From the NCBI GenBank assembly GCA_015056315.1, contig SVGN01000007.1, positions 1 through 64,000 of the forward strand: a DNA stretch of 64,000 bases. The letters are read 5' to 3'. The notes under the pieces are model-generated. The model was not told the origin of the DNA, ran no database searches, and saw only the letters and a program-made list of their open reading frames with translations. Position 1 is the first letter of the stretch. Every line of letters starts with the position of its first letter. Positions 26,515 to 37,310 of this stretch are shown here, one piece after another. Made by a program: the position numbers and the translations under genes. This DNA is from Clostridiales bacterium (GTDB lineage: Bacteria; Bacillota; Clostridia; Christensenellales; Aristaeellaceae).

Positions 26515-27867
26515 GTGAAACAATTCTGTTGTCTTCTGCTCTGCGCCCTTTTGGCGCTGCTGCCCATCGCAGGCTCTGCGGAGCTGAAAAGCGGCAGCAG
26601 CGGCGAGGAGGTGCGCCTTTTGCAGCAGCGGCTGATCACGCTGGGGCTTCTGGAGGGCACTGCGGACGGTGCCTACGGCAAAAAGACCGAAAGCGCGGTA
26701 AAGGAGGCCCAGCGGCTCCTGGCCTTCGCCGGGCAGCCCCTCACCCCCACCGGCATTGCCAATGATATGACCCTTGCGCTGCTGTTTGACGAAAGCGCCG
26801 AAAATGCGCTGCTCACTCTGTGCGAAGGTTCTTCCGGCCAGCGGGTGAAGGAGGTACAGAACCGCCTGATCGACCTGAAGCTGCTGGAGCCGCCAGCGGA
26901 TGGCGACTACGGTGCCGATACCGCCCTTGCGGTGCAGCAGTTCCAGCAGATCATGACCCAGCTGAGCGCCTTTGTGACCCGAACCGATGGTGTGCTGGAT
27001 ACTGCCAGCCAGCAGCTGCTGTTTTCCGACCTGTCGATCTACCACTACCCTGCTCCCGTCTGTTTTGACGATTCCCAGCCCCTGAGCCTGACCGGCGATT
27101 ACCTGTACGGCGATGCCTGCCTGGTGATGGAGGCCACCTCCGGGCGTGTGCTGTTTGAGAAAAGCAGCCGCCAGCCCATGTACCCAGCCAGCACCACGAA
27201 GATCCTTACGCTGCTGCTGGCGCTGGAGACCGCCGACCTGAACGCCACCGTGACCATTCCCGCAAGCGCCGCAGAGGTGCCTGCGGACAGCTCCCTGGTG
27301 CCGGTGACCCCCGGCGAGCGCATGACCATGGAGGATCTGCTCCACGGCCTGATGATCCGCTCCGGCAACGACGCAGCCAATGCGGTGGCCACCCTGTGCT
27401 GCGGCAGCGTAGAGGCCTTTGTGGAGAAAATGAACCAAAAGGCCGCTGCGCTGGGAGCCAACGATACCCATTTCGTCAACCCGCACGGATACCACGCCCA
27501 GGAGCACCGCACCACCGCCTACGATCTGGCGCTGATGGCCCGGGCAGGACTCACCAATGCGGATTTCTGCCGCATCGTTACCTGCCTCCATTACACCATG
27601 CAGCCCACCGCCAAGCGGGATGCGCTGGCGGTGGGCTGCACCCATGAACTGTTCGACCCCCAGAGCGAATTCTATATTCCCTATGCGGCGGGCATCAAGA
27701 GCGGCTACACCTCCATGGCGGGTTTCTGCTACGTAGGCGCTGCCCAGACCCAGCAGGGCACGCTGATCGCCGTGGTGCTGCACGCCCCCACCCGTAACCG
27801 GGCATGGATGGATCTGGACAGGCTCTTCAGCTACGGCTACGCCGCCCTTTCGGAAGCAGCGGAATAA
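26515..27867 (+). CDS. D-alanyl-D-alanine carboxypeptidase with two peptidoglycan-binding domains
   Basis: Secreted S11-family penicillin-binding protein, 450 residues. Signal peptide 1-22, two PG_binding_1 helical domains (about 26-90 and 104-170; KSGSSGEEVRLLQQRL and EGSSGQRVKEVQNRL), then a DacA-type domain with Ser226-Thr-Thr-Lys229, Ser283-Gly-Asn285 and Lys395-Ser-Gly397. It trims the terminal D-Ala of stem peptides. Clostridial sporulation DacF-like enzymes are relatives, but PG-binding domains ahead of the catalytic part are less usual. GTG start with GGGAGGTG about 8 bases upstream. Divergent from spoIID. Confidence 0.92.
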   Translation: MKQFCCLLLCALLALLPIAGSAELKSGSSGEEVRLLQQRLITLGLLEGTADGAYGKKTESAVKEAQRLLAFAGQPLTPTGIANDMTLALLFDESAENALLTLCEGSSGQRVKEVQNRLIDLKLLEPPADGDYGADTALAVQQFQQIMTQLSAFVTRTDGVLDTASQQLLFSDLSIYHYPAPVCFDDSQPLSLTGDYLYGDACLVMEATSGRVLFEKSSRQPMYPASTTKILTLLLALETADLNATVTIPASAAEVPADSSLVPVTPGERMTMEDLLHGLMIRSGNDAANAVATLCCGSVEAFVEKMNQKAAALGANDTHFVNPHGYHAQEHRTTAYDLALMARAGLTNADFCRIVTCLHYTMQPTAKRDALAVGCTHELFDPQSEFYIPYAAGIKSGYTSMAGFCYVGAAQTQQGTLIAVVLHAPTRNRAWMDLDRLFSYGYAALSEAAE

Positions 27868-27877
27868 CAAGCCAGGC

Positions 27878-27924
27878 AAACAGAGGCCCCCGATCGGAGC
27901 ATTTCCGGTCGGGGGCCTCTGTTT
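27878..27924. terminator. Bidirectional terminator between dacA-like gene and MATE gene
   Basis: Perfect 16-base-pair stem (27878-27893 with 27909-27924) with A-rich and T-rich ends, serving both convergent genes. Confidence 0.93.
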
Positions 27925-27926
27925 AC

Positions 27927-29309
27927 TTATGCAATTTGCATTTCTGCCTTCTGTGCCGCTTCTGCCTCGAAACGTCTGCGCAGCTTTCGCATCACATAGA
28001 AATAAGCGGGGATCAGGAACAGGTCTGCGGCGATCCATGCAGCCGGGTTGGCGAAGCAGGCACCCACAAAACCCATTGCGGGCACCAGCGTAAAGGCCAC
28101 GCCTGCCCGGGCGATCATCTCCAGCACACCGGCAACGATCGCCAGCTTGGAAAAGCCCAGCCCCTGTATCAAAAAACGAACGATGTTCACAAATGCCAGA
28201 AAGATGTACATCGAGCTGTTGATGATCAAATGGGTACGGGCATTGGCCAGCACCTGGGTCTCGGCTGCCTCTACGAACATCAGCGTCAGCTGGCGGCTGA
28301 AAAAGAAAATGACCGCAAAGGCAAACAGCGCATACACGATGCCCATTACAGAGCAGCTCTTCAGGCCCTTGGATACACGATCCAGCCTGCGGGCACCCAT
28401 GTTCTGGCCGCCGTAGGTAGCCATGGTGGAGCCCATGGCATCGAAGGGGCAGACCAGGAACTGGCTCACCTTGCCGCCTGCGGCAATGGAGGCCACCGCC
28501 GTGGAGCCAAGACCGTTGACCGCCGCCTGCAAAATGATGGCACCCACCGCCGTGATGGAGTACTGCAGCCCCGTGGGGATGCCCATACCGATCAGCTTTT
28601 TGATGCAATCGCCGCTGAGTTTCCAATCCTTCTTTTGCAAAAACAGCGCATCACTGCGAAAGATGTAGTTGACGCACAGAAGCGTGGAGGCGCACTGGGA
28701 GATGACCGTTGCCCAGGCGGCACCGGAAACGCCCATATCAAACCCAAGAATGAACAGCACATCCAGCGCCACATTCAAGAGGGAGCTGAAAATGAGGTAC
28801 AGCACAGGGGTCCGGCTGTCGCCCAGGGAGCGGATGATGCCGAAGAACACATTGTAGAGAAACACGATGGGGATGCCCAGAAACACCACGAAGATGTAAT
28901 CGTAGGCGTACTCGAAAATATCCGCCGGAGTGTTCATCCAGCGCAGAAAGGTGCTGCACAGGAGGCAGACCAGGGTGGTCATTACGGCGGCAAAGATCAT
29001 GGAGAGCATGATGGCGTTGGTCACAAAGCGCTTCATGCCCTGGTAATCCCGCTCGCCGAATTTCTGCGCCACGGGGATCACAAAGCCGTTGCACACGCCC
29101 ATGCAGAAGCCCAGCACCAGGAAGTTGAGCGAGCCGGTGGAGCCAACGCCCGCCAGCGCATCAACACCAAGAAATTTGCCCACAACGATGGTATCCACCA
29201 TGTTGTAGATCTGCTGGAACAGCATACCCAGCAAAAGCGGGATCAGAAACCCGAAGATCAGCTTCGTGGGCGACCCCTCGGTCATATCACGTACCGCACC
29301 GCGGCTCAT
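27927..29309 (-). CDS. MATE family efflux transporter
   Basis: Multidrug/toxin extrusion antiporter, 460 residues with about 12 membrane helices in two homologous halves. The N-terminal half has the typical FLIPLLLGMLFQQIYNMVDT and VGKFLGVDALAGVG; the second half begins around 240 (GIPTGLQYSITAVGAIILQ). Probably exports drugs or metabolites with Na+ or H+ exchange; substrate unknown. AGGAGG lies about 9 bases before the ATG. Clear DinF/NorM-type full length. Confidence 0.95.
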   Translation of the reverse strand: MSRGAVRDMTEGSPTKLIFGFLIPLLLGMLFQQIYNMVDTIVVGKFLGVDALAGVGSTGSLNFLVLGFCMGVCNGFVIPVAQKFGERDYQGMKRFVTNAIMLSMIFAAVMTTLVCLLCSTFLRWMNTPADIFEYAYDYIFVVFLGIPIVFLYNVFFGIIRSLGDSRTPVLYLIFSSLLNVALDVLFILGFDMGVSGAAWATVISQCASTLLCVNYIFRSDALFLQKKDWKLSGDCIKKLIGMGIPTGLQYSITAVGAIILQAAVNGLGSTAVASIAAGGKVSQFLVCPFDAMGSTMATYGGQNMGARRLDRVSKGLKSCSVMGIVYALFAFAVIFFFSRQLTLMFVEAAETQVLANARTHLIINSSMYIFLAFVNIVRFLIQGLGFSKLAIVAGVLEMIARAGVAFTLVPAMGFVGACFANPAAWIAADLFLIPAYFYVMRKLRRRFEAEAAQKAEMQIA

Positions 29310-29489: not shown

Positions 29490-30671
29490 TTACTGGGCAT
29501 TCGTTACAGGAGCGCAATCGCTGATGCGGATGATCAGGGCATCCTGTAGCTCCAGGTCGGTCTGGCGGTCGTTGATGCGGTTGGCCTGCCGCTCTGCATC
29601 CGCATGGAACCAGGCTTCGCCGTTCAGGGTGAACAGCTCCGCCCCGAAGAGCAGATCCTGACGCTTTTCCGCCATGCGCTGCTCAATGATGGTGCCATCC
29701 TTGCCCACAAGGGTAAAGAGGAAGTGGGTGTAGGTCTTTTCCATCCAGGTCTTTTTGAACATCCAGCCTGCATCGGTAATGGTAAAGTTACCGCAGACAT
29801 CCTTGGGCAGCACTACCTGCCACAGCTCCTTGCCCTCCGTATCCAGGCAGATCATGCGGCTTTCCAGCACGGTATCGTTTTCCCAGTCGGGCTTGTACCA
29901 GTTCACCAGCATGGTGCCATCCTGCTGGAAGCAGGGGTCGCTGAAGATGCCGTCGGCCAGTTCCTGGGGAGCATAGCGCCACAGCCGCTTGCCGTTGCCA
30001 TCAAAAGCCGCCACAGCCACGAAGGCATTCTCATCCCGGGTGCGTCCGGCAGCTACCCAACCTTCGCCCCAGGGGATCATGCCCTCCACCGCACCGGTGA
30101 GGATGCCTTCCTCCTTGGTCAGCTCCAGGGTACGCAGTGTGCCGTCCAGACTGGCGGCCGTGTAGCCCTTCTCCCAATCATAGAAGACGAAGCCATCGGT
30201 CATGATGCCCTCTACCAGACCCACCTCCAGGGGCAGGGGCACTTTTTCTTTCAGCTGGCCATCCATAGAGTAGATATGGATGGCGACCTCGGTGGTCACC
30301 TGGCTGGGTGCGTTGTAGAACAAAACGGCGATATCGCCGCCGGAGGTGATCAGCGGAGACACATAACGGGTGGTGCCCTTGGTCTCATCCACCGCCTCCC
30401 AGAGGATGCTGCCATCCGGCTTCAGGCACAGGAGCCATGCGCGGGTCTGGCGGGGTGCGCCGGTGACCATCTCCCGGCCGTTGCGGCCCAGCTGAGTGTA
30501 GCCGGTCAGCAACAGATTGCCGGTGGGCAGGGGCGTTGCTACATAAATGGTATCCTGTCCGGTACCGCCGAAGTACCAGCTGTCGGCAGTGCGTTCATCC
30601 GCAAGGGCGGGCAGGGCTGCGGTAAGGCACAGCAGCGCCAGCAGCAGAGCAAGCATTCTTTGTTTCTTCAT
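29490..30671 (-). CDS. Secreted beta-propeller-like protein of unknown function
   Basis: A 393-residue protein with a standard signal peptide (MKKQRMLALLLALLCLTAALPALA, cleavage near 24) and no lipobox. The mature part is rich in repeating Trp/Gly/Asp strand patterns such as GSILWEAVDE, GKRLWRYAPQ and GKELWQVVLP, spaced through the chain as in PQQ/WD-like beta-propellers. No enzyme motif found. It is divergent from a BlaI/BlaR1-type pair, and its promoter carries the same operator at the same position as theirs, so it is probably the regulated target: an envelope or antibiotic-response protein. Confidence 0.72.
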   Translation of the reverse strand: MKKQRMLALLLALLCLTAALPALADERTADSWYFGGTGQDTIYVATPLPTGNLLLTGYTQLGRNGREMVTGAPRQTRAWLLCLKPDGSILWEAVDETKGTTRYVSPLITSGGDIAVLFYNAPSQVTTEVAIHIYSMDGQLKEKVPLPLEVGLVEGIMTDGFVFYDWEKGYTAASLDGTLRTLELTKEEGILTGAVEGMIPWGEGWVAAGRTRDENAFVAVAAFDGNGKRLWRYAPQELADGIFSDPCFQQDGTMLVNWYKPDWENDTVLESRMICLDTEGKELWQVVLPKDVCGNFTITDAGWMFKKTWMEKTYTHFLFTLVGKDGTIIEQRMAEKRQDLLFGAELFTLNGEAWFHADAERQANRINDRQTDLELQDALIIRISDCAPVTNAQ

Positions 30672-30732
30672 AGGTGGTTTTCCCTCCTTAACAGCAAAGG
30701 CTTATTTTTCCTGTAAGCGTGCCGTCGCCTAT

Positions 30733-30761
30733 ATACTACATTCCGTCTTACATCCTGTCAA
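30733..30761 (-). promoter_or_regulatory. Promoter of the secreted-protein gene with BlaI-type operator
   Basis: Minus strand: TTGACA (30756-30761), 17-base spacer, TAGTAT (30733-30738). Within the spacer, 3 bases after the -35, lies TGTAAGACG (30744-30752), one mismatch from the boxes on the other side. Confidence 0.82.
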
Positions 30762-30807
30762 CCCATGAAGGGCTTTTGTTACAAAAGCAACAATCCCGCC
30801 GCCGGGG

Positions 30808-30855
30808 TTGACATGCTGTAAGACAGGTTGTATGATAAAGCCATCCTGTAAGACA
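30808..30855 (+). promoter_or_regulatory. Promoter of blaI-blaR-type operon with two operator boxes
   Basis: TTGACA (30808-30813), 17-base spacer, TATGAT (30831-30836). TGTAAGACA occurs in the spacer 3 bases after the -35 (30817-30825) and again exactly 30 bases later (30847-30855) in the untranslated leader. BlaI/MecI/CopY repressors bind TGT/ACA dyads of this kind. Confidence 0.85.
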
Positions 30856-30891
30856 AGCCGTCTTTCGACGAACCAAGGAGGATATGGACCA

Positions 30892-31278
30892 ATGAAATCG
30901 CAGCGTTTACCCGACACCGAGTTTGAGATCATGGATTACCTGTGGAGCCTCACGCCCCCGGTGACCACCGGCATGGTAATGGAAAAGATGGGCCGGGAGC
31001 GGGGCTGGAAGATCCAGACCGTGGTAACGCTTTTTGCGCGGCTCACCGAGCGCGGCTTCCTGCGCGTAGAAAGAGGAAGCGGGCGCGAACGGGCCTTCTA
31101 CCCCCTCATTACCCGGGAAGAATACCTGCGCATGGAGACCGAAAGCTTCGTGGAGCGCTACCACAAGAACAGCTTTACCAGCCTGCTGGCTGCCCTGCAC
31201 CGGGAGCAGCTCACCGATACCGATCTGGATGAGCTTACCCAGTGGCTCAGCAGCATGAAAGAAGGGAAGGAGCAATGA
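30892..31278 (+). CDS. blaI: BlaI/MecI/CopY family transcriptional repressor
   Basis: Winged-helix repressor of 128 residues: LPDTEFEIMDYLWSL at the start, winged helix to about 75 (IQTVVTLFARLTERGFL), then a helical dimerisation region (SFTSLLAALHREQ). In the family, a BlaR1-type membrane protease triggers cleavage of the repressor and so induction. ATG 30892 has AGGAGG 11 bases upstream. The last codons overlap the start of the M56 gene (ATGA). No beta-lactamase gene is next door, so the inducer need not be a beta-lactam; the symbol denotes family only. Confidence 0.88.
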   Translation: MKSQRLPDTEFEIMDYLWSLTPPVTTGMVMEKMGRERGWKIQTVVTLFARLTERGFLRVERGSGRERAFYPLITREEYLRMETESFVERYHKNSFTSLLAALHREQLTDTDLDELTQWLSSMKEGKEQ

Positions 31279-33398
31279 AGACCGTTCTGCTTTGCGTACT
31301 TTCCACCTCAGCGGCGCTGTCGCTGATCACGCTGGTATGCCTGGTGCTTTCGCCCATGCTGGAAAAGCGCTACTCCCCCAAGGGGCTGTACACCGCAGCC
31401 GTGGTGCTGATGCTGGGCTTTCTGGTGCCGTTTTCGTTGCTGATCCCCAAGCCGCTGGTAACGGTAGAACTGCCCACGGAGCTTTCCCAGCCGCTGTTCT
31501 ATCGCCCGGCCATCACCTGGTCGGCAGGCAGCATCCAAACGGCACCGGCAACAGAAGCAGTCACCGGCAGCGAGACCGCCGCATCTGCCATTGCCACCGC
31601 TGTGCCCACCGTGCAGGAAGCACTGCCCGCCCCCGCCCCCATCCAGGCCACCGAGCAGGGGATCCTATACGAAGAGGCCCCCTCCGCCGGTCTGTGGCAG
31701 CGGCTGAGGAACATCAACTGGCTCAGCCTGCTGGGCTGGGTGTGGCTGGGCGGTGCCATCGTTACGCTGATGTGGCAGCTTCTGCGCCACAGGTGTTTTC
31801 TGCGCACCCTGCGCCGCTGGCGGGAGCACTGCGGCAACACGCTCTACCTGCATACCCTCTCCGAAGTACAGGAGGATATGGGCATTGAGCGCAGCCCTGC
31901 GCTGTTCCTGTGCCCCGGTGTGCCCAGCCCCATGCTGATCGGGCTGAAAAGCCCTGCCATCTATCTGCCGGACGAAGCCCTCACCGCCGATGAGCTGGCA
32001 CTGGTGCTTCGCCACGAGCTTACCCACTACCAACGCCGGGATCTGCTGGTGAAAGCCGCCCTGCTCCTCTGCCGGGCCATACACTGGTTCAATCCCATCA
32101 TGCTGCCCCTGAGCCGCTGGCTGTGCTACTGCCAGGAGGCCTCCTGCGACAGCTGCGTTACCCATAACGCCTCGCAGGAGGAACGCCGCTTCTACTCCGA
32201 AACCATCATCCGGGTCATCCGGCGGCAGGTTCAGGCGCGCACACAGCTTTGCACGTCTTTTTACGGAGGTAAAGAAGGTATGAAGAAACGAATTCTGTCC
32301 ATTATGAACACCGCCAAGCGCCGCGCTGGCGTGGTGCTGTGCATCTGTCTGCTGGCAGCCACGCTGGTCTGCGGCGGCGCGCTGGCGCTGGACGGCGATA
32401 TGCTGCTGTCCTTCCCCCAGGCGGCTTGGGTGCAGGCCCAGAACGGCACCGGTGCCTATCTGCTCACCTGCCCCTCTGCCAACGATCTCTCCTGCCCCAT
32501 GGGCATCTACCTCAACGGTACCCCGGTGATCATCGAGCAGGTGGTCTCCGGCGGCTCCCTCAAGGAGTGGGGCCAGGAGGAGGGCGAACTGAACTGGGCC
32601 GAGGTGCTCATCGGCGGCGATGGCTACGAGCAGGGCATCCACGGCTGGATGCCCCTGCGGGATCTGGCCCATGCAAGCGCCGAACGGCTGCCCGCCGCCA
32701 CCCTGAAGGCCGCCAGCGACAGCGGCTACACCGATCTCTATGCCATCAACGACCGGGAGAGCGAGGTGACCGCCCTGCGCCCCGGCGGCACGGAGGTTCG
32801 TGTGCTGGGCCAGCTGAACCACTGGCTGCACGTTGCGCTGGAGGAAGAAAGCTACTTCGTGCTGCTGACGGATACCGAACTGAGCCAGGAGGCCGACAAG
32901 CGGCTTTGGGAGCTGCTGCCGGAGCGCTTTGGCGGCACCACCCGCATCGAATACGATGCCCAGCACATCTACAGCAAGCTGCTCGAAGAAAAGCAGCAGG
33001 TCTACGGCGATCTGGATGTGATCTTCTGGTCTGTGGCGGATAAAGCCTACTACGGCGAGCTGGAGGAGCAGTATGTGGGCATGCACGACCTTTACTACCT
33101 GCTGCCCGGCAAAGACGACATGACCGAGCAGGAGGCAGTGGAAACAGCGCTGGCTGCCTACGCCAAGGCAGCCCAGCTGGAAACCGTGACCACAGAGCAG
33201 GTGGATGTATACCCCGGCTTCTACCGCATTGGCTATACCGAGCCCACCTACTGGGATGTGATCATCACCTTCAAGGGCAGCTATGACTATATCGCCTGGG
33301 TGGTCATCGACAACGCTACCGGCGAGGTGCTGAACATCAACGGCACTGCCCCTGAGCTGATCATCGAGCCCATGGTCTCGCCCGAGGGCAACGGCTGA
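31275..33398 (+). CDS. BlaR1-type M56 sensor protease with unusual C-terminal sensor
   Basis: A 707-residue antirepressor-type protein. The N-terminal four-helix membrane part contains the M56 zinc protease motif His247-Glu-Leu-Thr-His251 in LRHELTHY. A further membrane helix lies at about 350-370 (VVLCICLLAATLVCGGAL). The remaining ~335 extracytoplasmic residues are not a penicillin-binding domain: they look like one or two SH3-like barrels (about 380-540), a middle segment, and a C-terminal PepSY-like stretch (YIAWVVIDNATGEVLNI). Such a sensor might read wall fragments or peptides rather than beta-lactams. Translationally coupled to the repressor gene. Confidence 0.85.
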   Translation: MKTVLLCVLSTSAALSLITLVCLVLSPMLEKRYSPKGLYTAAVVLMLGFLVPFSLLIPKPLVTVELPTELSQPLFYRPAITWSAGSIQTAPATEAVTGSETAASAIATAVPTVQEALPAPAPIQATEQGILYEEAPSAGLWQRLRNINWLSLLGWVWLGGAIVTLMWQLLRHRCFLRTLRRWREHCGNTLYLHTLSEVQEDMGIERSPALFLCPGVPSPMLIGLKSPAIYLPDEALTADELALVLRHELTHYQRRDLLVKAALLLCRAIHWFNPIMLPLSRWLCYCQEASCDSCVTHNASQEERRFYSETIIRVIRRQVQARTQLCTSFYGGKEGMKKRILSIMNTAKRRAGVVLCICLLAATLVCGGALALDGDMLLSFPQAAWVQAQNGTGAYLLTCPSANDLSCPMGIYLNGTPVIIEQVVSGGSLKEWGQEEGELNWAEVLIGGDGYEQGIHGWMPLRDLAHASAERLPAATLKAASDSGYTDLYAINDRESEVTALRPGGTEVRVLGQLNHWLHVALEEESYFVLLTDTELSQEADKRLWELLPERFGGTTRIEYDAQHIYSKLLEEKQQVYGDLDVIFWSVADKAYYGELEEQYVGMHDLYYLLPGKDDMTEQEAVETALAAYAKAAQLETVTTEQVDVYPGFYRIGYTEPTYWDVIITFKGSYDYIAWVVIDNATGEVLNINGTAPELIIEPMVSPEGNG

Positions 33399-33487: not shown

Positions 33488-34495
33488 TTATTCGTTTTCG
33501 CCAAGAGCCCGGTCGCTTTCGCGGTAGACGGGGTAACCGCCCACCACCACACGCCCGCACAGACGCACCACACCGTTGCAGCGATCCACGATCAGCTTTA
33601 CGGCGGTATCGATGATGGTCTGGTAATCCAGCCGGAAGGTGGAAAGGGCAGGCTGGATGGCACCGCCGGGCAGGTAGTCGTCGAAGCCGACGACGGATAC
33701 ATCCTCCGGCACACGGATGCCCTCCTGCTTCAGCTGCTCGATCAGGTGCCGGGCCACGTTGTCGCAATTGCAGACAAAGGCGGTGGGCAGCTTTTCGGGC
33801 AGCTCCAGATGGATGTAGTTGCCGTGATCGTCCCGCTCCTTGACCACGCACTCGGGCCGGATGGGCAGATCGTGGGTGATCATGGCGCGCATGAAGCCCA
33901 GATAGCGGTCCATGATGCTGCTGGTGGCCCGGGTATCGCCGATAAAGCCGATATCCTTGTGGCCGTTCTTGATCAGGTGGCTGGTAAGCCGGTAGCAGCC
34001 GTAGGTGTTATCGCCCACCACCGCATCGGCACGGGCCTGATCGTCGTAGAAGTCCAGAAAGACCACCGGGGTGGTCTGGGAGGCGATCAGCTGCAGGTAA
34101 GCCTTGCTGGGCTGGCCCAGAAGAATGAGGCCATCCACCCGGCGGTTGCGGAGCAGATTGGGCTGCACCAGGGCCTGCTCCTCGGCCTCCTCCAGCAGCT
34201 CCAGCAGGCAGAAATGGCCTGCATCCGCCAGAGATTGCACCAGCAGCTTATACAGCATGGCATAGTAGGTGCCCTCGCCGAAAAAGCGCTCGGGAATGAG
34301 CACGCCGATATCCATGCCCCGTTTTTCCTGATGCTTGGCCGTGTTGGGGTTTACATAGCCCATCTCCGCCGCCACTTCCAGGATCTTCTGCCGCACAGCA
34401 TCGCTGACGCCGCTTTCGCCTGCCATGGCTTTGGATACCGTTACCGCACTGACACCGACAGCCTTGCCGATATCCCTCATGGTTACTTTCTTCAT
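33488..34495 (-). CDS. LacI family transcriptional regulator
   Basis: Sugar-responsive repressor of 335 residues. HTH at 4-25 (TMRDIGKAVGVSAVTVSKAM), hinge helix around 50-58, then a periplasmic-binding-protein-like ligand domain (IGVLIPERF ... GFIGDTRATSS ... SVVGFDDY). Last gene of the operon that starts with the sugar-binding protein, so it probably represses its own operon through the perfect palindrome at 38743-38764. GGAG lies 7 bases before the ATG. Confidence 0.93.
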   Translation of the reverse strand: MKKVTMRDIGKAVGVSAVTVSKAMAGESGVSDAVRQKILEVAAEMGYVNPNTAKHQEKRGMDIGVLIPERFFGEGTYYAMLYKLLVQSLADAGHFCLLELLEEAEEQALVQPNLLRNRRVDGLILLGQPSKAYLQLIASQTTPVVFLDFYDDQARADAVVGDNTYGCYRLTSHLIKNGHKDIGFIGDTRATSSIMDRYLGFMRAMITHDLPIRPECVVKERDDHGNYIHLELPEKLPTAFVCNCDNVARHLIEQLKQEGIRVPEDVSVVGFDDYLPGGAIQPALSTFRLDYQTIIDTAVKLIVDRCNGVVRLCGRVVVGGYPVYRESDRALGENE

Positions 34496-34529
34496 GGGTG
34501 CTCCTATCTCATCTCAAGGATGGGTACGA

Positions 34530-35485
34530 TCAGCCCTGGGATGCCTCCCTTTCGGCGATCGCTTTGCTGTAAGCCTTGAGTACTTCCCCTGCGGGTTTCC
34601 CGTAGACACAGTAGCCATCGTTGGTAGCTGCCTTCTCCAGCGGGTACAGGCGCACGGCGCTCCAATCCCACCATACGCAGCCGCGCACCCAGGGGTGCCG
34701 GATGAGCGCATCGGTAAAGGCCCGGTACCATGCTGCCTGCGCCTCATTGCTCTGCGCACCGCCATAGCTCCAGTTGTTGGGAATGAACTCGCTGCCGCTG
34801 CGGGAGGGGCAGCCGCTCTCCATAAACAGGAAGGGACGGTCGAAACGTTTGGCTACTTCTGCGATCCGCTGGAAATTCTCCTCCAGCGCATTAATTGGAT
34901 AATACCCCGAAGCGGAGATGCTGTCAAGTGCATCCCACCAGGTTACACGATCTTCCTGATATTTATCGCAGTTGTAGTAACGTGACCGGAGTAGCAGGCA
35001 CGTACATCGCTCACCAGCTTGCGCCATTCGGCATCGCGGTGGTCTGCGCCGACCATTTCGCAGCCGACGCAGAACATTTCCGCCTGTACCTCCTGGGCCA
35101 CCTTGGCCAGCTCGCACACGAAGCGGCCGTAGCTTTCGAACCATTCGCCCCAGGTGGGCTCGGAGGGTACATAGTTATCGATAAAGTGGATGTAAGCACG
35201 CCAGTACCCATCACGGCAGTTGACCATGGCCTTGAGGATGATGCGCAGCCCCAGCTCCCTTGCATAGGCGCATACGGCGCGTACATCGTCCATGCTCATT
35301 ACGTCGGGGGTCTCGAAATCCACCTGAGTGGAATAGGCGTGATCCTGCAATGCGCCTACGGGCAAAAGTAGGGTATCGCAGCCGGTGGTCTCCACCATTT
35401 TGTGCATGGAATCCTTCCAGCCGTCGCGCCGGGTAAAGCCCCGGGGGCTCATAAAGCCATAGGTACAACCGTTGAAGTACTGCAT
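34530..35485 (-). pseudogene. Frameshifted GH-A clan glycoside hydrolase (GH113-like)
   Basis: Homology runs through two frames: residues 1-172 in the frame starting at ATG 35485, and the rest in the next frame down to the stop at 34530. The switch lies at about 34976-34980, where one base seems to be missing (...YSGHVT / YNCDKYQEDR...). Joined, it makes a roughly 317-residue TIM barrel with a family acid/base Glu in FCVGCEM and a nucleophile Glu in FLFMESGCPS, resembling GH113 beta-mannanases. No signal peptide, so it would act on imported oligosaccharides. Either a recent inactivating deletion or a sequencing/assembly error; the site is not a classic slippery sequence. Confidence 0.82.
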
Positions 35486-35489
35486 ACTG

Positions 35490-36338
35490 TTACCCCTTTA
35501 CTGCGCCATTGGTCATGCCGTTGTAGATCTGCTTCTGGAAGAGAACGAAGATGATCAGAATAGGCAGGATGCAGATGAGAACGCCCGCACAGATAATCTC
35601 ATACTGGCTCTTGGTGGGGCCCAGATAGGTATACAGAGCCGTGGAGACCGTCTTGTAGAGCTTCTTATCCTGCAGGTACAGGCTGGCGTTGTAATATTCG
35701 TTGTAGATACCTACACCTTTGAGAATCATACACGTTACCATGGCCGGGCGCAAGAGGGGGAGCAAAATTTTAAAGAAAACGCCATAGTAGGTGCAGCCCT
35801 CGATAATGGCGGATTCATCCAGCGCACGGGGCAGGTTCTCGAAGTATTGCAGCAGGATGTAGATGGAGATCACGTCCGTGCCCGCCATCATGAGCACATA
35901 GCCGAACAGGCTGTTGACCAGCTTCAGCTGGGCCATCATCTTGTAGATGGTCACCTGCATGGCAAGGCCGGGGATGAGGCTGGCCATGTAGAACGCGCCG
36001 CGGATGAGCCCGTTGCCGAAGAACTTGAAGCGATCCAGCACATAGGCCAGCATGCTGCCCAGCATAACGGAGATGCAGACAACCACCACCATTACGCCGA
36101 CAGAGGTAACGAAGCCCTGCAGGAAGCCGCTCTCGTTCCAGAAGTCGATAAAGTTATCCAGATGGCCCCAGTTCTGCGGCGGTGCCACTTTACTGGTCAT
36201 GCTGAATTCTTCCTTGGTCTTGAAGGCCGCAAACACGCAGCTGACCAGCGGCAGCAGACAGATGACAGAAGTAACGATCAGCGTAAGATGCTTGAAAAAT
36301 TTGCAGACATAGTCCTTAAACGTACGTTCAACGCCCAC
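35490..36338 (-). CDS. Carbohydrate ABC transporter permease (MalG/UgpE type)
   Basis: CUT1-family inner-membrane permease, 282 residues, six helices. The cytoplasmic EAA loop is visible (ALDESAIIEGCTYYGVFFKILLP). Starts with GTG at 36338 directly after the partner's stop codon (no gap). Pairs with the upstream permease and the binding protein. No ATPase gene lies in the cluster, so a shared MsmK-type ATPase encoded elsewhere is likely. Confidence 0.93.
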   Translation of the reverse strand: MGVERTFKDYVCKFFKHLTLIVTSVICLLPLVSCVFAAFKTKEEFSMTSKVAPPQNWGHLDNFIDFWNESGFLQGFVTSVGVMVVVVCISVMLGSMLAYVLDRFKFFGNGLIRGAFYMASLIPGLAMQVTIYKMMAQLKLVNSLFGYVLMMAGTDVISIYILLQYFENLPRALDESAIIEGCTYYGVFFKILLPLLRPAMVTCMILKGVGIYNEYYNASLYLQDKKLYKTVSTALYTYLGPTKSQYEIICAGVLICILPILIIFVLFQKQIYNGMTNGAVKG

Positions 36339-37310
36339 TTACTTCGCCCCCTTTACAGCCTTGGTCTCGGTGGTCGCATTGCGGAAGGCATACTTGAACA
36401 GCAGCTTCTGGAAGATGGTGCATACCGCAATGATCAGCACCAGCACCACCGCCATGGCGCAGGCCAGGCCCACACGGTGCTCCACATGCGCTGTCTGGTG
36501 CATCTGGATGAAGTAGGTAGCCGTGCCGTTGCCGCCCATGGAGGTGATTACGTACGGCGGCTCAAAGGCGCTCAGAGAGCCGGTGATGGAAAGGATCACA
36601 TTGAGGGTGAGCACGGTGGAGATGCTGGGCAGAATGATGTAGCGGAACTGGTGCCACTTGTTGGCACCATCGATGGCGGCGGCCTCGTAGAGGTTGGGGT
36701 CAACGCTCATGATGGCACCGGAGAAAAGCACCATGTTCTGGCCCATGTACTTCCAAACGGAGGTAGCCACCAGCGACCAGTTGTTGATGCGCACATCGCG
36801 CAGCCAGTAGGGCAGTTTCTCCAGCGGGATGCCCAGAAAGCCAAGGGTGGTATCCAGCACATAGCCGCGGGTATAGAAGAACTTGAAGATGAAGCCGATG
36901 GCAATGCCGTTTACAAGGAACGGGAAGAACATGATGCCCTTGTAGAAAGCCGTGCCCTTGGTGCGGAAGCTGAGGATGGTGGCAAAATACAGCGCCAGGG
37001 CGATCTGTACCAGCGCACCCACCATGTAGTACAGGCTGATGCGGAAGGTGGAGAACAGCTCATCCTTGGTAAAAACGCTGATGTAGTTCTTCAGCCCGAT
37101 AAAGCCGCGGTTCTTGGTGTAGCTCATGTTGAAAAAGCTGAACTCCACCATCTTGGCAAAGGGGAAGTAGGTGAACATGATGAGCAGGAACACCGGCACC
37201 ACCGCAAAGGTGAAAATGACCAGCCGCTGCTGGTTCTTCGGCAGTGCGAACCATTCCTTGAAGGTCTTGCGCCCGGCCTGACGGGGCACAGCATTGTTGA
37301 CAACAGACAT
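36339..37310 (-). CDS. Carbohydrate ABC transporter permease (MalF/UgpA type)
   Basis: First CUT1 permease, 323 residues. A cytoplasmic N-terminus of about 25 residues precedes six helices. The EAA loop reads EAAAIDGANKWHQFRYIILP. It follows the binding-protein gene after a hairpin that probably lowers its transcription. Substrate probably an oligosaccharide matched to the neighbouring glycoside hydrolase (inference). Confidence 0.93.
   Translation of the reverse strand: MSVVNNAVPRQAGRKTFKEWFALPKNQQRLVIFTFAVVPVFLLIMFTYFPFAKMVEFSFFNMSYTKNRGFIGLKNYISVFTKDELFSTFRISLYYMVGALVQIALALYFATILSFRTKGTAFYKGIMFFPFLVNGIAIGFIFKFFYTRGYVLDTTLGFLGIPLEKLPYWLRDVRINNWSLVATSVWKYMGQNMVLFSGAIMSVDPNLYEAAAIDGANKWHQFRYIILPSISTVLTLNVILSITGSLSAFEPPYVITSMGGNGTATYFIQMHQTAHVEHRVGLACAMAVVLVLIIAVCTIFQKLLFKYAFRNATTETKAVKGAK

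Follow-up and report, generated by a model that had tools for sequence, protein, structure and literature searches.

What does a BlaR1-type protease sense, and what does its repressor control, when the usual penicillin-binding domain and β-lactamase are not detected? This question is raised by a locus in a Clostridiales bacterium (GenBank assembly GCA_015056315.1; family Aristaeellaceae), within the window analysed here, which is the whole 64,000-nucleotide stretch at positions 1 to 64,000 of contig SVGN01000007.1. At 29490–33398 the window carries three genes: a BlaI-family repressor, a BlaR1/M56-type membrane protease (hereafter the sensor) whose start overlaps the end of the repressor gene by 4 bp, and a divergently transcribed gene for a secreted β-propeller protein. 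Repressor, sensor and propeller form one cassette, far beyond what chance would produce, and it is a real, conserved and apparently self-contained circuit. We consider it likely that this is a bla-type divergon in which both input and output have been exchanged. The general idea of such a switch is known; the parts and the sensed input are new. Chief among the novelties are the exchange of input and output, a 3-bp operator centre, and the recurrence of the propeller behind extracytoplasmic function (ECF) sigma factors.

A Conserved Cassette with Three Operators

Conservation of the cassette was assessed in 17 genomes of the genus, the window's own included. Strong orthologues of the sensor (E ≤ 1e-200) are found in seven of these, counting its own, and strong orthologues of the propeller (E ≤ 1e-84) occur in the same seven, with weak propeller matches in three more (G095, G096 and G105). 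The three genes are adjacent in 7/7 genomes, and the propeller is divergent in all of them. Identity of the six orthologues to the window's proteins is 78%–88% for the repressor, 49%–63% for the sensor, and 39%–65% for the propeller. The MATE, carboxypeptidase-like, and LacI genes that flank the cassette are common to G100 and G101; they were not found in the fetched stretches around G097, G093, and G107, and the G104 contig is too short to judge. Since the flanks differ among genomes, there are at least two contexts in which the cassette has been kept.

The orthologous intergenic regions of the six other genomes align with that of the window, and invariant positions are concentrated in the elements listed in Table 1 (55/74 positions, versus 19/146 in the remaining intergenic sequence). 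What is conserved is a 17-bp dyad of imperfect symmetry, TAAGACR-NNN-YGTMKTA, with the core ACA-N3-TGT. Exactly three dyads are present in each of the seven regions at two or fewer mismatches, compared with means of 0–0.04 in 100 dinucleotide shuffles of each. Their placement is the same throughout (7/7): one operator over the propeller −10 (L), one over the regulator −10 (R1), and one just downstream (R2), with R1 and R2 spaced 30 bp apart in four genomes and 29 bp in three. The exact sequence TGTAAGAC is present at 13 of the 21 sites (three sites in each of seven genomes), and R2 is fully symmetric in G104 (L026).

A first-pass annotation of this DNA had proposed that both promoters share one geometry (TTGACA, box, −10) and that a single repressor shuts both. 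The geometry is borne out, and the operators over both −10 elements in seven intergenic regions support one repressor for the two promoters. The box it had named, TGTAAGACR, is a conserved motif but is only the left arm, or half, of the larger operator. Conservation of the boxes beside orthologues had been set beforehand as a test, and operators are conserved at 6/6 orthologous cassettes.

Table 1. Genes and regulatory elements of the cassette, in window coordinates (invariance refers to the seven genomes).
Feature	Position	Strand	Basis or conservation
Divergent target P0002, 393-aa β-propeller protein with signal-peptide-like N-terminus	29490..30671	-	open reading frame (ORF) and translation
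Target promoter -10, TAGTAT	30733..30738	-	sequence; 6/6 positions invariant
Operator L, TAAGACGGAATGTAGTA	30734..30750	-	12/17 positions invariant
Target promoter -35, TTGACA	30756..30761	-	6/6 invariant
Central element TTGTTACAA, between both -35 boxes	30776..30784	.	9/9 positions invariant
Regulator promoter -35, TTGACA	30808..30813	+	5/6 invariant
Operator R1, TAAGACAGGTTGTATGA, overlaps regulator -10	30819..30835	+	11/17 invariant
Regulator promoter -10, TATGAT	30831..30836	+	4/6 invariant
Operator R2, TAAGACAAGCCGTCTTT, downstream of regulator promoter	30849..30865	+	10/17 invariant
BlaI/MecI-family repressor P0003, 128 aa	30892..31278	+	Pfam Penicillinase_R
BlaR1-like sensor protease P0001, 707 aa	31275..33398	+	Peptidase_M56

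How specific are these sites? TGTAAGACR occurs three times in the window (0.31 expected) and seven times in the window's genome, three of these at the cassette. As the mark of a genome-wide regulon it was rejected, the four other copies (C14, C23, C57, and C62) lying on contigs with no PF03965 match. In this genome the dyad is matched exactly at operator L and nowhere else. A two-mismatch dyad on C95 was judged a chance product of TAC repeats; the gene downstream of it has a start that resembles dnaN. A stricter pattern, AAGACANNNTGTMKTA, gives 24 matches in 16 of the 308 genomes of the family, at 21 places (three sites match on both strands), and 19 of the 24, in 11 genomes, lie within about 200 bp of where a P0003-like repressor begins. 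The remaining five (G057, G126, G166, G251, and G258) are apparently intragenic by reading, with no P0003-like repressor within the fetched flanks. The central element TTGTTACAA occurs 14 times in the genome, compared with 23 for its reversed control, and by this count is not enriched; one of its 13 other copies lies upstream of the promoter of the BlaI module on C68.

An Operator Centre of Three Base Pairs

The repressor belongs to the BlaI/MecI family by its Pfam match (Penicillinase_R, PF03965; 5.7e-25, 88.3 bits against a cut-off of 22.6), and its PDB matches are MecI/BlaI chains. An operator core of ACA-N2-TGT has been published, with RNYKACANNTGTMRNY as the CopY consensus, and TACA/TGTA is given in that paper for BlaI and MecI (PMC7253601). 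Here the centre is N3 at 3/3 sites in 7/7 genomes; apart from this, the core letters fit the BlaI/MecI operator. The genome's two other BlaI/M56 modules have a clear N2 dyad (C80) and a dyad read as N2 by eye, for which the scan scored N2 and N4 equally (C68). A fourth PF03965 match, on C49 (22.7 bits against 22.6), was not counted as a BlaI module because it is barely over the cut-off and its contig has no M56 match.

Among 36 repressors from fetched loci, 21 could be assigned to N3 and eight to N2, with seven unassigned. On the repressor tree N3 needs five changes (shuffled mean 11.7) and N2 needs two (7.4), and none of 500 shuffles was as low; L046 was set to N3 by eye in this labelling, and L005 was labelled N2 although N4 scored equally in the scan. 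The N3 and N2 labels thus cluster on the tree, without forming single clean clades, and its long branches are flagged. The motif of Clostridium thermocellum BlaI_0696, given in the available part of PMC8457756 as inverted GTCTAT repeats five nucleotides apart, is a possible precedent for N3 spacing.

A BlaR1-Type Protease with a Different Tail

The sensor has a Peptidase_M56 domain (PF05569; 7.1e-39, 134 bits against a cut-off of 31) and four hydrophobic segments (residues 1–31, 37–64, 152–170, and 347–375), which by a topology estimate would place the M56 domain inside and residues 376–707 outside, as in BlaR1. The HELTH motif (HExxH, 247–251) and E288xxxD292 are invariant in 7/7 sensors, as are D256 and Y307, the equivalents of BlaR1 Asp210 and Tyr261. 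The BlaR1 autocleavage segment LSHS|F284 (these BlaR1 residues are from the available part of PMC9834060) aligns with LCTS328|F329 of the sensor, in which L325, C, S328, and F329 are invariant in 7/7, making S328|F329 a putative autocleavage site. Because the protease motifs and the autocleavage site (LxxS|F) are conserved, signal transfer is very likely as in BlaR1/BlaI. The top Foldseek matches of the sensor model are BlaR1, and at E ≤ 0.001 only BlaR1 is matched.

The tail is another matter. No Pfam match to a C-terminal penicillin-binding (class-D-like) sensor domain is seen in any of the seven sensors, and the blaR1_generic model scores 94 bits on the window's sensor against a cut-off of 400. 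SxxK occurs in one tail of the seven. Penicillin sensing by the tail was accordingly discarded, there being neither a domain match nor a conserved SxxK, and the claim of a non-penicillin-binding sensor is supported: a match of the C-terminus to a known β-lactam-binding domain, which would have counted against it, was not found. What the tail does resemble is SH3 and PepSY. Matches among the seven orthologues are all weak (SH3_16 at 4.6e-4 in 1/7, SH3_3 at 0.015 in 1/7, and PepSY in 6/7, best 0.049; PepSY on the window's own tail has 9.8 bits against a cut-off of 24). Both SH3_3 (1.7e-7) and PepSY (1.9e-7) are matched above cut-off in L133, an M56 sensor that is more distant but has the same tail.

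Searched with a profile of the tail, 47 of the 308 family genomes give a match. We examined 23 proteins in the fetched loci: eight have HExxH, one (L145) is a cut view of an M56 sensor of G069, and 14 lack HExxH. In genus g46 (L132, L135, L136, L138–L140, and L144) such proteins are about 580–610 aa long, with a signal-peptide-like start, an SH3/PepSY-like tail and no protease; those of L150, L152, and L153 have the tail without HExxH and one hydrophobic segment near the N-terminus. In G000, C58 (L008/L071) carries an M56 protein on a contig with no PF03965 match.

The Propeller and Its Second Home

In place of a divergent β-lactamase or PBP2a, the target is the propeller. It has a hydrophobic segment at residues 4–26, and its predicted structure (predicted local distance difference test, pLDDT, 84.5) is all-beta and matches β-propellers in the PDB with Z up to 21.6; these matches and the adjacency in 7/7 cassettes agree with the first-pass assignment of a secreted β-propeller as the target. 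A match to BamB/PQQ_2 (PF13360) stays below cut-off for the window's protein (16.7 versus 27.6 bits), and the best among the seven orthologues is E = 1.5e-5.

Relatives detected with a propeller profile occur in 31 of the 308 family genomes, of which 23 lie outside the genus. Twenty-two of these 23 (all but G291) are represented among the 24 loci that we fetched, the first nine chosen for a large neighbour and then 15 others. At 12 of the 24 (9/9 of the first set and 3/15 of the others), all from genera g4 and g32, genes for an ECF sigma factor and a large transmembrane (TM) protein immediately precede the propeller gene. Sigma70_r2 and r4 are present in 4/4 of the sigma factors tested, and the partner is a protein of about 640–820 aa with one TM segment near residues 40–79 (9/9 tested). 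At the other 12 loci neither the sigma factor nor the TM partner was found. The window-type and ECF-linked propellers are homologous (profile comparison, E = 1.6e-34).

The partner of the ECF sigma factor is harder to relate to the sensor. PepSY was matched in 1/6 partners tested (3.4e-4, below cut-off). Two truncated partner ORFs match the tail profile (L169, 4.5e-4; L176, 4.3e-7), and such matches are absent for the full-length proteins at E ≤ 0.01 or 0.001. Comparison of the partner and tail profiles gives a probability of 93% with the rows found by the tail included, and 20% (E = 0.0011) without them. The resemblance of the sensor tail to the outer part of the partner is thus only suggestive, and, the link being weak, there are no more than hints that an envelope-sensing partnership has been reused with another output, the ECF sigma factor.

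Could the propeller itself, instead of being the end product of the switch, take part in signalling by docking on the sensor's PepSY/SH3-like tail as a secreted ligand, co-sensor, or feedback inhibitor? Genus genomes that lack an orthologous sensor have no strong propeller match, apart from the weak ones already mentioned, and relatives of the propeller follow envelope proteins, both at the 12 ECF loci and in G101 (L074), where one follows two secreted PepSY-like proteins, one of them above the Pfam cut-off. Against this stand the weak likeness between sensor tail and ECF partner and the lack of any such partner, by profiles, at the other 12 of the 24 loci and at L075, L076, and L154–L158. We regard a signalling role for the propeller as possible but doubtful. 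Of similarly tentative standing is a broader proposal, in which the propeller and the SH3/PepSY sensor would be a conserved pair mounted on two unrelated machines (BlaI/M56 and ECF sigma/single-TM protein), with an N3-reading BlaI on the repressor side.

Several further arrangements were seen around these families. In L177–L187 and L195 (g4 and g32), the order is ECF sigma factor, single-TM protein, and one or two secreted propellers, with the partner ORF split in L195. In G100 (L158, 3456–4624) a propeller relative is split into two ORFs and is apparently a decayed copy. Divergent from the G086 repressor, a gene at L103 562–1284 (−) encodes a protein that looks secreted and propeller-like by eye and is matched by neither the propeller profile nor Pfam (E ≤ 1). 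Upstream of a BlaI/M56 pair in G178 (L110, 419–1375) lies a gene for a Cthe_2159-type carbohydrate-binding protein (1.5e-69), a possible alternative target.

A Proposed Mechanism and Its Alternatives

In the divergon with exchanged input and output, repressor dimers at rest would sit on the three ACA-N3-TGT dyads and shut both the propeller promoter and the repressor–sensor promoter. A cue in the envelope would reach the SH3/PepSY-like tail on the outer side of the membrane, and the four-TM M56 protease would then be activated, probably autocleaved at S328|F329, and cut the repressor. Both promoters would open, more sensor would be made, and the secreted β-propeller would serve as an effector that binds or protects in the envelope, or would dock on the sensor or its ligand as feedback. 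From repressor binding and cleavage through to the identity of the cue and the propeller's task, these steps are what we infer, and the "envelope sensing" of the first-pass annotation has the same standing. The cue is probably peptidoglycan or another wall polymer; cell-wall material is favoured because of the SH3_16 match and because BlaI responds to a peptidoglycan dipeptide.

In another alternative, the circuit would still answer β-lactams or cell-wall damage, with no drug bound by the sensor and with released muropeptides signalling at the SH3-like tail or binding the repressor directly. The dipeptide γ-D-Glu-m-A2pm binds Bacillus licheniformis BlaI and dissociates BlaI and MecI from their operators (PMC3305447, in the part available), and the Mycobacterium tuberculosis BlaR1 homologue lacks the sensor domain, β-lactam detection there being called unclear (PMC9834060). 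SH3_16 is, per Pfam, a bacterial dipeptidyl-peptidase SH3 domain, in keeping with the muropeptide proposal. Bacterial dipeptidyl-peptidases with this domain work on wall peptides. Among the three genes, however, there is no β-lactamase or penicillin-binding protein, and the propeller is the only target detected. We consider this alternative rather unlikely.

A metal-responsive repressor of the CopY type is very improbable. CopY and BlaI/MecI have the TACA/TGTA core in common, CopY carrying C-terminal CXC motifs (PMC7253601, excerpt), and NCBIfam CopY_TcrY does match the repressor (1.8e-14). The score is nevertheless far below cut-off (54.1 versus 121.95 bits), the gene partner is a protease, and the repressor is not CopY-like because it has no cysteine, hence no CXC. 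Equally remote is the idea that promoter conservation and neighbouring genes mimic a circuit by chance: the right arms of L and R1 do overlap −10 elements that would be conserved anyway, but R2 is conserved outside any promoter hexamer, and all seven real regions hold three sites, against means of 0–0.04 in shuffled ones.

Some observations weigh against the exchanged-input, exchanged-output divergon that we prefer. The structure prediction for the sensor is poor (pLDDT 54.6, and below 50 for most of residues 367–562), which leaves weak profile matches as the basis for the SH3 folds. At the positions of the MecI/BlaI cleavage residues N101|F102 the repressor has other residues (A/A/L). Cleavage at another point is possible; an S94–F95 pair that resembles the sensor's own cut site is invariant among repressor orthologues, and a cut there is speculation. 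R1 and R2 have one mismatch each to the dyad, and sites on C4 and C97, which look intragenic, are equally close. Genome-wide, the reversed control is commoner than the forward dyad (278 versus 29 at two or fewer mismatches), and the operator case therefore rests on position, not number. With one or two deviating bases at their sites, the window's own genome, G097, and G101 escape the stricter pattern AAGACANNNTGTMKTA. The proposal of a self-contained local regulon is supported, in that no further target was detected in the window's genome; this genome is 80% complete, and other targets may therefore be missing.

Comparison with Known Systems

The first-pass annotation held that the system resembles nothing described, and this part of it is not supported. 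The layout, with its divergent target, repressor–protease operon, and three operators, is that of the bla divergon of B. licheniformis and Staphylococcus aureus (OP1–OP3 in B. licheniformis; PMC3305447, in part), and BlaR1 likewise is a four-TM protease of the M56 type that has HEXXH and EXXXD motifs and an S|F site for autocleavage (PMC9834060). Unlike the bla divergon, the cassette has no detected β-lactam-binding domain or β-lactamase, no N|F repressor site, and a 3-bp centre. Small autoregulated BlaI regulons in C. thermocellum, with targets not annotated as β-lactamases, also count against that claim; they differ in that the available part of PMC8457756 describes no divergent propeller, annotates the sensors as BlaR1, and gives two operator pairs per promoter. 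Its authors read those regulons as β-lactam responses.

More distant likenesses are instructive too. The CopR–CopY operator family (RNYKACANNTGTMRNY) has the KACA..TGTM core in common with the cassette, and on the CopY side a 2-bp centre and a copper-sensing CXC (PMC7253601). BlaI/BlaR1 of M. tuberculosis likewise has an M56 protease without a penicillin sensor domain; no SH3/PepSY tail is mentioned in the available part of PMC9834060. The g4 and g32 ECF operons combine a homologous propeller with an envelope-facing partner, and their output is a sigma factor, not repressor proteolysis. In the open-licence literature no description of the cassette was evident by title or abstract opening among the matches listed.

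BlaR1/BlaI is familiar mainly as a detector of penicillin; the cassette, together with related M56 sensors that have the same tail, suggests that it is an envelope-sensing chassis with a swappable input domain and target. For BlaR1, the way in which extracellular sensing controls intracellular cleavage is named as an outstanding question (PMC9834060), and three genes with three operators make a compact test object for M56 switching by something other than covalent acylation. The operators also raise the question of how a BlaI dimer can fit half-sites that lie one base pair further apart, and the second home of the propeller family behind ECF sigma factors is a lead to what is sensed.

Neighbouring Genes

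Next to the cassette, at 26515–29309, lie a MATE transporter gene (Pfam) and a gene that by eye resembles one for a D-Ala-D-Ala carboxypeptidase carrying peptidoglycan-binding repeats; two of the six relatives share these neighbours. On the other side, at 33488–37310 (−), a LacI-family regulator (Pfam) is followed by genes that by eye resemble those of sugar ABC transporters and glycosidases.

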